From NCBI GenBank assembly GCA_032249735.1, contig JAVVHA010000013.1, positions 1 to 64,000 on the forward strand: 64,000 nucleotides of DNA, written 5' to 3'. Made by a program: the position numbers and the translations under genes. This stretch comes from Dehalococcoidia bacterium. GTDB taxonomy: Bacteria; Chloroflexota; Dehalococcoidia; SM23-28-2; HRBIN24. A model generated the notes under the pieces. It saw only the letters and a list, made by a program, of their open reading frames with translations. It had not been told where the DNA came from and did not search any database. Below are positions 3,725 to 13,324 of the stretch, piece by piece. Positions within the stretch are counted from its first letter, which is position 1. Every line of letters starts with the position of its first letter.

Positions 3725-5080
3725 ATGGCTCAGGGCTCCTCTCATGCATGGAGAGGCCCTGGGCGCGCAGGCATACGAAAGCCGAGGGAGCTGGTGCTCT
3801 TTTCTTCCCGACCGCGCCCATCTGCGGTGCTCAGGGGTTTTTGGGCCCTCTGTCGGCTCATGGTGCTGGCGGGGAGCCTGCTGGCCATCGTCGCCTGCCA
3901 CAGGTCGCCCCTTCAACCACAACTCCCGGCCGATGGCCAGCCTCAGGGGTGGTCCACCCCCCTTGAGAACCCTGCCCCTGCTCCCACACCTACCCCCCAG
4001 ATCCAGCTGCCCACCCCTATCCCCCTCCCCGATGAGCTGAGGGAAAGGCTCAAGGGAGTGACCAGCTTCTCGGCGGCTCTGAAGCTCCTGCCCGAGCTCC
4101 GATTTCACCATCTGGTGCCCCGCCTCCGTACCATCCCTGAGCTGGGCATCCGGCAGATCGTCTACGAGCTGCCGGAGGAGGTGGCCCAGAACCTCTATCT
4201 CAACCTGGCCCTAGGGCAGCCCCTACCCACCAGGTTCCAGGAGAGGCTGCCCCCAGGGGTGGTGGCAGTGGTGACCCATTTCCCCCAGGACACCATTGGC
4301 GTCATGGGGCCTTTCATCTGGGTGCAAGCAGGTGGCGTAGCCCGCCAGCTCTACGACGTGGACGTGAAGGCAGCCTACCGGGCCCTGGGCTACCCTGATA
4401 TACTCCTGGCCGAGATATACATCGAGGCGCCCCTGGGTTATCCAGGGCCCGGCCCCCGCCTCCCCTTCCACCCCTGGGATCGGGTGCGGGGATATGTGGG
4501 CGATGACTTGGCCAGGGGCGACATCCCCCCAGGCACGGTCTACGCCTGGGCTGGCCCCGATGGCTCGTGGCGCCTCTGGGAGTACCCTCATATCCCCCAG
4601 GAGGGCGACCTGGCCAGGCTCATCTGGAACTTCCACCCCCGCGACCCCCAATCTGGACGGCGGCAGTTCGAGATCCCCATCTTCCTGCAGCAATCCCAGG
4701 AGAGGGAGCAGGAGAAGACCTTCAGCAACCCCCAGAGGCTCCAGGACAACGTGGGGCCCTCCATCATCCTCCGCACCGATGAGGTCACCGGCCTCACAGA
4801 CGTCCTAGCGGTGGCCCCCTATCTGTACCTCCAGAACCCGGACCTCCTGCGGGACATCCTCTACTACACCCCCCTTCCCGATGGCTCCCTGCCCGACCCA
4901 GACCACCTCATCATCGGGGCAGGCGACCTCCACTACTCCTCCAACGGCAAGATGGGCCTCCTCCTCACCATCGACGAGGAGGGTCTGGACATGGCCTTGG
5001 AGGATGTCCGGGAGACACGCATAGACTTTTGGCAGGTGAAGAACCACATCGGCCTTTATCTGGGGAAAAGGAAAGGATAG
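3725..5080 (+). CDS. Predicted lipoprotein of unknown function
   Basis: I do not recognise the family. From the ATG at 3725 there are ~45 mostly polar, basic residues, then a hydrophobic stretch ending in a lipobox (LLAIVAC, Cys58), then a Pro/Thr-rich linker. The rest is a mature domain of ~390 residues without obvious repeats but rich in 'PGTVYAWAGPDGSWRLWEYP'-type beta segments. The long N-region is odd for a signal peptide: the ATG at 3860, thirteen codons before the lipobox Cys, would give a normal type II signal. AAGGTGA sits six bases before 3725, but a TTGACA/CATAAG promoter would place the transcript start at about 3721 and make that SD unusable. Probably anchored on the outer face of the membrane. 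It is followed by another lipoprotein gene. Confidence 0.7.
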   Translation: MAQGSSHAWRGPGRAGIRKPRELVLFSSRPRPSAVLRGFWALCRLMVLAGSLLAIVACHRSPLQPQLPADGQPQGWSTPLENPAPAPTPTPQIQLPTPIPLPDELRERLKGVTSFSAALKLLPELRFHHLVPRLRTIPELGIRQIVYELPEEVAQNLYLNLALGQPLPTRFQERLPPGVVAVVTHFPQDTIGVMGPFIWVQAGGVARQLYDVDVKAAYRALGYPDILLAEIYIEAPLGYPGPGPRLPFHPWDRVRGYVGDDLARGDIPPGTVYAWAGPDGSWRLWEYPHIPQEGDLARLIWNFHPRDPQSGRRQFEIPIFLQQSQEREQEKTFSNPQRLQDNVGPSIILRTDEVTGLTDVLAVAPYLYLQNPDLLRDILYYTPLPDGSLPDPDHLIIGAGDLHYSSNGKMGLLLTIDEEGLDMALEDVRETRIDFWQVKNHIGLYLGKRKG

Positions 5081-10965: not shown

Positions 10966-11379
10966 ATGCTCACCCCCGCGCAGGAGAGGTTCGCAGCCCA
11001 GCAGCGGGTAGCCCGCCTGGCCACCGCCGATGCCCATGGCCAGCCCCATCTGGTGCCCGTCTGCTTCGCCTATCTCGGCGGGCGTTTTTACATGCCCGTG
11101 GACGAGAAGCCCAAACGGAAAAAGGCCCTCCGGCGCCTGCGCAACATCGCCCAAAACCCTCAAGTAGCCCTCCTGCTGGACGTGTACGACGACGATTGGC
11201 ACCGCTTGCACTGGCTTATGGTGGAGGGGGAGGCCAGGGTCCTCACGGGTGGGCCGGAGCATGGGGCAGCGGTGGCCGCCCTCAAGGCCCGCTATCCCCA
11301 ATACGAGGCCATGGGCCTAGGGATCCATGCCATCATCTGCGTCATGCCCCGCCGCGTCCTAGAGTGGCGGTGGGCCTAG
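10966..11379 (+). CDS. PPOX-class (probably F420-dependent) oxidoreductase, Rv0121-like
   Basis: A 137-residue split-barrel flavin/deazaflavin-binding protein. The pattern 'RVARLATADAHGQPHLVPVCFAYL', 'DEKPKRKKALRRLRNIAQNPQVALLLDVYDDDWHRL' and 'VEGEARVL' matches the TIGR03668-type PPOX family, usually annotated as F420-dependent. It begins at an ATG one base after the lepB stop. Use of F420 is an inference from the family. A nucleotidyltransferase-like gene at 37204 loosely recalls CofC, but no complete F420 pathway is visible. Confidence 0.85.
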   Translation: MLTPAQERFAAQQRVARLATADAHGQPHLVPVCFAYLGGRFYMPVDEKPKRKKALRRLRNIAQNPQVALLLDVYDDDWHRLHWLMVEGEARVLTGGPEHGAAVAALKARYPQYEAMGLGIHAIICVMPRRVLEWRWA

Positions 11380-11474: not shown

Positions 11475-11503
11475 TTGACAAGGCCAGGGTAATGGGCCTA
11501 AAT
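11475..11503 (+). promoter_or_regulatory. Promoter of the nitroreductase gene
   Basis: A perfect TTGACA (11475-11480) is followed after 17 bases by CTAAAT (11498-11503), with TAAATA one base further on. The SD (AAAGGAGGTG) and ATG lie 20-35 bases downstream, as expected. The -10 is weak. The 155 bases between the PPOX stop and this gene hold nothing else that I recognise. Confidence 0.45.
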
Positions 11504-12344: not shown

Positions 12345-12350
12345 TACAAT
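12345..12350 (+). promoter_or_regulatory. -10 box (TACAAT) immediately before the palindrome
   Basis: TACAAT matches the -10 consensus in five of six positions and abuts the 33-base palindrome, so transcription would start inside the palindrome's left arm. No good -35 lies 16-18 bases upstream. This placement would make the palindrome an operator over the start site or a hairpin at the 5' end of the transcript. Confidence 0.4.
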
Positions 12351-12383
12351 GGCATCAGGGGTGGCAGTGCCACCCCTGATGCC
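12351..12383 (+). repeat. Perfect 16-bp inverted repeat with 1-base centre
   Basis: The left arm GGCATCAGGGGTGGCA (12351-12366) and its exact complement (12368-12383) flank a single G. No mismatch occurs over 32 bases. It is not followed by a T-run, so it is not a classic terminator of the nitroreductase gene that ends at 12330. It lies between a TACAAT box and the SD (AGGAGG, 12389-12394) of the orphan SAM-like protein. This fits an autoregulatory operator or a recombinase-type binding site. Confidence 0.9.
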
Positions 12384-12400
12384 ATGCCAGGAGGTCGTCC

Positions 12401-12745
12401 ATGGCCACCGTCGAGGAGCTGGCGGGCCAGGAGTCGGTGCAGCGTTGGTACAACTATTACTCCCAGCACTGGGGGGCACCGCCAGACTGGGACTTTAAGC
12501 TGCAGGCCCTGGCGCGGTTCTCCCAGTGGATAGGCAAGACCCCCGACCAGATGATAGGGGAGTGCCTGCGGGAGGTGGAGGGAGGGTACAAGAAGATAAG
12601 GGTCAAGAAGCGCCGCTTCTACATCGCTAAGATCAAGGAGTTTGAGGAGAACATCGGCGGCGTACAGGGGCGCAACTGGGCCAACGCTGTGCGCTCCTTC
12701 TTCATACACAACGGCGTGGCCATGTCCGCCGATATCCTCAGATAG
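12401..12745 (+). CDS. Stand-alone integrase-type SAM-like (core-binding) domain protein
   Basis: 114 residues. The helical pattern 'SVQRWYNYYSQHW...DFKLQALARFSQWIGKTPDQMI', then 'FYIAKIKEFEE' and 'NWANAVRSFFIHNGV', resembles the N-terminal SAM-like core-binding domain of tyrosine recombinases. It stops right there: there is no catalytic R-H-R-Y domain within the ORF, nor downstream before the convergent DinB gene. The start is supported by AGGAGG six bases before the ATG. It may be a remnant of an integrase or a self-standing DNA-binding protein. The perfect palindrome between its promoter and SD favours a DNA-binding, possibly autoregulatory role. Domain assignment is by eye. Confidence 0.7.
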   Translation: MATVEELAGQESVQRWYNYYSQHWGAPPDWDFKLQALARFSQWIGKTPDQMIGECLREVEGGYKKIRVKKRRFYIAKIKEFEENIGGVQGRNWANAVRSFFIHNGVAMSADILR

Positions 12746-12802: not shown

Positions 12803-13324
12803 TCATACAGGGCTACCCCTAAGCCCCATCAGCCCCCGTAGGTGCTGTATCTCTCCCAAATGGGTATATCCGTGGGTCATGCATACGTTGCCAATGGCGT
12901 TGAGGACCTTCATATCCCCTAGCGGCCTAATGGTCACCGTCTGCTCTAGGTAGGCGTCGTCGATGGTGCCCAAGAACTCCTCCACGGATTGCCACACCCG
13001 CCGCGCATACTCCAGGAACTCCTGGGCCGAGGGCAGCTGGAGGGCACGTGCCTGCTCCAGGCTCCATCCTGTGCCCTGGTGAATGCGGTCCAGGCCGAAC
13101 TTCTGGTCATACCCTCCCTCCAGCCAGACGGTGGGCTGGCGACGCAGGACGAAGTTGACAATGTTGTCCTCGGTGCGCACCAGGTGCCAGGCCACGAAGG
13201 CGATGTGGACCCCTTTCTCGTTGGCCGTCCAGTGTAGCTGCTCAGGCGTGAGGTCTCTGAGCGCCTCGTCATACTGGCGGTGCATATCGTGGAGGCAGCG
13301 CTGCAGAAACTCCACTATGCTCAT
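12803..13324 (-). CDS. DinB-family protein
   Basis: About 173 residues of the DinB/YfiT four-helix bundle. The opening is 'MSIVEFLQRCLHDMHRQYDEALRDLTPEQLHW', with 'HIAFVAWHLVRTEDNIVNF' holding the first metal-ligand His and 'MTHGYTHLGEIQHLRGLMG' the C-terminal His pair. DinB-like proteins are metal-dependent, often thiol-linked (bacillithiol or mycothiol) S-transferases or of unknown activity. The ATG at 13324 preceded by GGGGGTG is the best start; the ORF extends 19 codons further without support. It converges with the SAM-like protein gene. Confidence 0.88.
   Translation of the reverse strand: MSIVEFLQRCLHDMHRQYDEALRDLTPEQLHWTANEKGVHIAFVAWHLVRTEDNIVNFVLRRQPTVWLEGGYDQKFGLDRIHQGTGWSLEQARALQLPSAQEFLEYARRVWQSVEEFLGTIDDAYLEQTVTIRPLGDMKVLNAIGNVCMTHGYTHLGEIQHLRGLMGLRGSPV

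Follow-up and report, generated by a model that had tools for sequence, protein, structure and literature searches.

Locus architecture

The window, i.e., the whole stretch of 64,000 nucleotides of Dehalococcoidia DNA analysed here, harbours two adjacent genes on the same strand, which code for a nitroreductase-fold enzyme and a small, predominantly helical protein, and which are separated by a long perfect palindrome (Table 1). The TACAAT box, the Shine-Dalgarno sequence and the open reading frame of 114 codons, which an earlier note had picked out from the letters, are all borne out. That note missed the constant neighbour of the small gene, the nitroreductase.

The nitroreductase gene is preceded by a promoter-like TTGACA-17-CTAAAT element. 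In the nearest relative, HRbin24, the two hexamers recur at the same distance, whereas the spacer sequence is not kept, and no inverted repeat occurs at this element in the window or in HRbin24, the two genomes examined. Thus, the operon probably has an ordinary upstream promoter, where transcription most likely starts. The TACAAT box lacks a -35 hexamer in both genomes; since TACAATGG is conserved, it could act as an additional internal promoter. Just 5' of the nitroreductase gene, positions 10966-11379 (+) look by eye like a small PNPOx/F420-type flavin-binding split-barrel protein. Downstream of the pair lies a convergent DinB_2-family gene (12803-13324, -), which weakly resembles the mycothiol transferase model MST_Rv0443, below the cut-off. 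A DinB_2 gene, often convergent, is found near the pair in many relatives of the same taxonomic order, and is a frequent neighbour in that order only.

Table 1. Features of the nitroreductase/small gene locus (positions in the window).
Feature	Position	Strand	Remarks
Promoter-like TTGACA-17-CTAAAT	11475..11503	+	Precedes the nitroreductase gene; hexamers and spacing kept in HRbin24
Nitroreductase-fold flavoenzyme gene, 264 aa	11536..12330	+	PF00881; constant upstream partner
TACAAT, possible internal -10 box	12345..12350	+	TACAATGG kept in HRbin24
Perfect palindrome, 18+1+18	12349..12385		Probable intercistronic RNA hairpin, 17 bp, loop AGT
Shine-Dalgarno sequence AGGAGG	12389..12394	+	6 nt before the ATG; AGGAGGTCGT kept in HRbin24
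Gene for small helical protein, 114 aa, ATG at 12401	12401..12745	+	Core-binding-domain-like fold; proposed nitroreductase partner
DinB_2-family gene, convergent	12803..13324	-	PF12867; not counted among the module genes

The small gene is conserved and under selection

The open reading frame of 114 codons represents a genuine gene under selection. When 148 relatives were searched with the small protein, 19 genomes yielded a match, and a motif scan of approximately 85,000 genomes (GTDB species collection), which used the small protein only, retrieved 48 homologue loci from several phyla. Judged by their record titles, the hosts of these loci comprise Chloroflexota (including Dehalococcoidia and Thermoflexaceae), Binatota, Deltaproteobacteria, a gammaproteobacterium, an actinomycete and others. 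The first 21 homologues measure 110-122 amino acids and share 14 invariant columns, W16, W24, R71, R98 and N104 among them. Between the window and HRbin24 the small proteins are 72% identical, and their genes differ by a dN of 0.17 and a dS of 0.68, indicative of purifying selection. No Pfam, NCBIfam or PHROG family covers the protein, its relatives are absent from viral contigs and phage records, and a sequence search of the PDB returned coiled-coil-type noise only, e.g., dynactin.

A constant nitroreductase neighbour

The upstream gene product scores 37 bits against PF00881 (gathering cut-off 23.5), and its structural model (pLDDT 93) aligns with FMN nitroreductases at Z scores of up to 19.2 (202 residues). 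Members of this family bind FMN and catalyse NAD(P)H-dependent reductions, as the present enzyme may do as well.

The linkage between the two genes is conserved. In all 48 scan loci a nitroreductase of the same subfamily lies directly upstream of the small gene on the same strand, with a partial nitroreductase in L059 and L063, and only its end, at a contig edge, in L074. The distance between the genes ranges from an overlap of 1 nt to about 300 nt, and start-stop overlaps are frequent. The nitroreductase likewise lies directly upstream in 21 of 21 loci of the first set of homologues, and among 393 genomes of the class 38 of 39 small-protein matches are located beside a nitroreductase, the remaining one at the start of a contig. 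Both genes are missing together in a genome of the same genus and in another genome of the family. The small gene is restricted to a single nitroreductase subfamily, and more distant nitroreductases (about 47% identity and below) often occur without it. Hence, the constant neighbour points to an enzyme operon, and away from the roles considered in the earlier note, namely transcriptional regulation by an integrase derivative, directionality or partition.

Several loci carry additional copies. Binatota genomes (L052, L058, L064, L091, L048 and L056) possess tandem arrays of the order N1-S1-N2-S2 (N, nitroreductase; S, small protein), which lie at approximately 2.5-5.6 kb of each locus, and in which S1 and S2 have strongly diverged (25-29% identical). 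Thermoflexaceae-type loci read N-N-S. In L051, L065, L067, L069 and L071, a single small protein comes after tandem nitroreductases of about 276-303 and 266-278 amino acids, an arrangement that hints at a possible complex of mixed nitroreductases. These arrays imply that the pair was duplicated or extended as a module. The Binatota arrays also represent a good system to study partner specificity.

The evolutionary distances of the two proteins correlate with a coefficient of 0.86 over 43 pairs, a value that is weak by itself, since co-inherited genes are expected to correlate. A fusion of the two proteins was ruled out for G217, G322 and G358, which have the longest open frames next to a nitroreductase: by their coordinates, the two genes are in different frames. 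The L066 nitroreductase is preceded by a long open frame that contains no second Pfam domain.

Genes for IpdA/IpdB-like CoA-transferases adjoin the pair in L072, L080 and L084 (approximately 4.3-6.2 kb) as well as in L057, L085, L086, L088 and L051; PF01144 was confirmed for L084 (both genes) and L051, and the other loci were assigned by clustering. By eye, further neighbours look like thiolase, acyl-CoA dehydrogenase, enoyl-CoA hydratase and SDR genes. Judged from these neighbours, a role of the pair in a CoA-ester, ring-degradation or xenobiotic pathway is plausible.

Fold of the small protein

The earlier note had likened the small protein to the SAM-like core-binding half of a tyrosine recombinase, a likeness that the predicted structure supports and sequence profiles do not. 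The model (pLDDT 90) adopts the helical layout of a core-binding domain and adds a beta-hairpin at residues 56-66. In VIA-align the three best matches are XerA (5hxy; Z 7.0, rmsd 3.2, 81 residues), the integron integrase IntI (2a3v; Z 6.8, rmsd 2.8, 82 residues) and an archaeal Xer protein (Z 5.0, rmsd 3.6, 79 residues), followed by an unrelated protein at Z 3.8. A Foldseek search with the model gave nothing significant, and a library of viral structures contained no useful match. A profile-profile comparison with 47 recombinase core-binding domains from relatives reached a probability of 12.7%, over a stretch of 37 columns only.

As modelled, the small protein resembles the core-binding domains in its helix arrangement over about 80 residues, and differs from tyrosine recombinases by the lack of profile-level similarity, by the added beta-hairpin and by the lack of a catalytic domain. 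The protein is indeed free-standing, as had been noted: the R-H-R-Y catalytic domain is absent in all homologues, and the open frames end at about 110-135 amino acids. The small-protein family is moreover near-neutral, with a median pI of 6.8 versus 9.3 for the 47 recombinase domains (net charge, P = 6e-6, calculated for sequences that are not independent); the window protein itself is basic, with a pI of 9.3. Given a high structural rank and unsupported profile homology, the resemblance of the model to a core-binding domain is credible as a structural one. Descent from a recombinase appears rather unlikely, and we regard as more doubtful again the fuller scenario of a widespread two-subunit nitroreductase-fold enzyme, the small subunit of which is a recombinase DNA-binding domain that lost its DNA-related role.

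The palindrome between the cistrons

The palindrome is real, and with perfect arms of 18+1+18 it extends two bases per arm beyond the 16+1+16 initially reported; its first two bases coincide with the end of TACAAT. For arms of at least 18 and a loop of at most 10, the chance expectation amounts to about 6e-5 inverted repeats in 64 kb, and the palindrome is the sole inverted repeat in the window whose arm exceeds 10. A search for the 16-mer arm, which the earlier note had proposed, found no second copy in the 1.73-Mb genome at 0-1 mismatch; the arm is therefore single-copy, ruling out a genome-wide repeat or REP-like family. In 260 kb sampled from the genome to gauge the density of inverted repeats, four others of unrelated sequence with arms of 11-14 are present, three of them with arms of 13-14. 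These three, perfect and GC-rich, are located at L100:16194-16221, L101:19079-19105 and L095:5315-5347; two of them lie in or near intergenic spacers and lack T tracts. One palindrome of the sample is situated by the beginning of a katG-like gene that follows an aquaporin-like one (gene names by eye), another is intergenic. Long perfect palindromes are thus rare in this genome, yet the one at 12349-12385 is not the sole one of its type.

Among the homologues, only HRbin24 features an inverted repeat at the same place. The flanks are common to both genomes (TACAATGG before and AGGAGGTCGT after the repeat), and the stem sequences differ: 7 of 15 pairs are changed on both sides with pairing kept, and one T-A pair is replaced by T-G. 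The stretch is predicted to fold as RNA with -38 kcal/mol in the window and -33 kcal/mol in HRbin24. As the hairpin is common to two of the four genomes that make up the family sample, the covariation rests on one comparison. Two-sided changes that preserve pairing fit an RNA hairpin conserved in structure, and not a conserved operator. The earlier view of the palindrome as an operator thus loses ground, the repeat being missing in all other homologues and, in HRbin24, different in sequence; conservation upstream of the homologues, the lack of which the earlier note had itself named as a ground for refutation, is largely absent. We consider the palindrome a probable RNA hairpin. The palindrome may instead be an operator dyad whose specificity has changed, although the T-G step would break such a dyad. 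The hairpin appears to be lineage-specific, as many relatives overlap the two genes instead.

A T tract directly after the stem is absent in the window, where GCCAGGAGG follows, as well as in HRbin24, and therefore, the hairpin is not a canonical terminator. No Rfam family matched the palindrome above its gathering score, and the sub-threshold hits were mostly microRNA hairpin models. A deltaproteobacterial metagenome-assembled genome carries an independent hairpin between the nitroreductase and the small gene (L090, ~3921-3952; arm 13, TTCGAGGCGGCGG), which has a T-rich tail.

Relation to known systems

The closest parallel to the gene pair is the cyclodipeptide oxidase AlbA/AlbB, in which a small helical subunit joins a nitroreductase-fold enzyme and supplies some of the residues that surround the FMN (PMC11055893). 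The corresponding genes are adjacent and often overlapping, with strong synteny (PMC11055893). Both systems thus combine a nitroreductase-fold flavoenzyme and a small all-helical protein, encoded by adjacent, often overlapping genes. AlbA (8uc3_A) aligns with the present nitroreductase model at Z 15.7 over 177 residues, a fold common to many other enzymes. The present enzyme comprises about 264 amino acids including a C-terminal extension, compared to about 190 for the AlbAB enzyme, and the hosts differ. AlbAB forms heteromeric filaments with cyclodipeptide oxidase activity; for the present pair, a complex is proposed. AlbB shows no sequence similarity to the small protein in the PDB search and does not appear among the structural matches listed.

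With regard to the hairpin, intercistronic structures without a uridine tract, at malE-malF and elsewhere in E. coli, shield the upstream cistron from 3'-5' decay (PMC5927463). Hairpins of this type are likewise stable, located between two cistrons and not followed by a uridine tract. Unlike these, the hairpin predicted here consists of an almost perfect palindrome, and a Shine-Dalgarno sequence comes immediately after it. Literature searches on nitroreductases with integrase-like small proteins, on domesticated core-binding domains and on nitroreductases with ipdAB brought up no description of the pair.

A two-gene operon and its alternatives

We favour, with a probability of about 65%, a two-gene operon that encodes a nitroreductase-fold flavoenzyme and its small helical partner, with a lineage-specific hairpin between the cistrons. 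Transcription from TTGACA-17-CTAAAT would yield a transcript of both cistrons, in which the palindrome would fold into a hairpin that probably sets their relative amounts. The hairpin may block 3'-5' decay of the upstream cistron or isolate the second ribosome-binding site. By analogy, the small protein is probably a partner subunit of the nitroreductase, most likely a stable second subunit that would complete, cover or organise the flavin site. The gene order, the common strand and the frequent start-stop overlaps resemble those of translationally coupled subunits. The partner model has to accommodate a fold that resembles a DNA-binding domain, the basic character of the window protein and the absence of any recognisable likeness to AlbB or to another partner subunit of solved structure.

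Alternatively, the two proteins might serve a common pathway while remaining separate, the small one as, e.g., a carrier, chaperone or sensor; the palindrome would then be a terminator or attenuator. The T-rich tail of the L090 hairpin and the position of other GC-rich palindromes of the genome in or near intergenic spacers are compatible with this explanation, but the hairpins of the window and HRbin24 lack the T tract, and an exceptionless linkage combined with duplication of the pair exceeds what is usual for members of a common pathway. We consider it improbable.

A slightly poorer candidate is an operon-specific transcription factor built on the recombinase core-binding fold, which would bind the nitroreductase promoter in most hosts and, in the present lineage, also the palindrome at an internal promoter, a view close to that of the earlier note. 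The strict downstream position across phyla, the near-zero net charge of the family and the conserved upstream promoter without an inverted repeat do not suit such a factor, even though the fold matches recombinase DNA-binding domains and the window protein is basic. A perfect dyad beside TACAAT and ahead of the Shine-Dalgarno sequence is what an operator would look like, and its arms changed together in HRbin24, as those of a co-evolving operator would. However, two proteins that are 72% identical would need to read very different half-sites, the T-G step breaks a DNA dyad and not an RNA stem, and elsewhere among the homologues the palindrome is missing, the two genes often leaving no spacer between them.

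A decayed integrase or mobile-element remnant beside a chance palindrome, for which the core-binding-like fold without a catalytic domain might speak, is negligible: the constant length with 14 invariant columns, the lack of a catalytic domain in the homologues and the dN/dS values of a gene under purifying selection rule out a degraded integrase, no relatives occur in viral contigs or phages, and the palindrome is far beyond chance.

Implications

If the two-gene operon proposed here is correct, a family without a Pfam, NCBIfam or PHROG model would acquire a concrete function, that of an obligate companion to one nitroreductase subfamily, in Chloroflexota, Binatota and further groups that are mostly uncultured. 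In AlbA/AlbB, the only such combination of a nitroreductase-fold enzyme and a small subunit to have been studied well, the enzyme alone could not be made soluble, and therefore, annotation or expression of such enzymes would need to consider both genes. A perfect palindrome in front of a gene could then be an RNA element, the pairing of which is kept while its sequence turns over. Should the recombinase origin hold true, a fragment of an integrase would have become part of a flavin enzyme.
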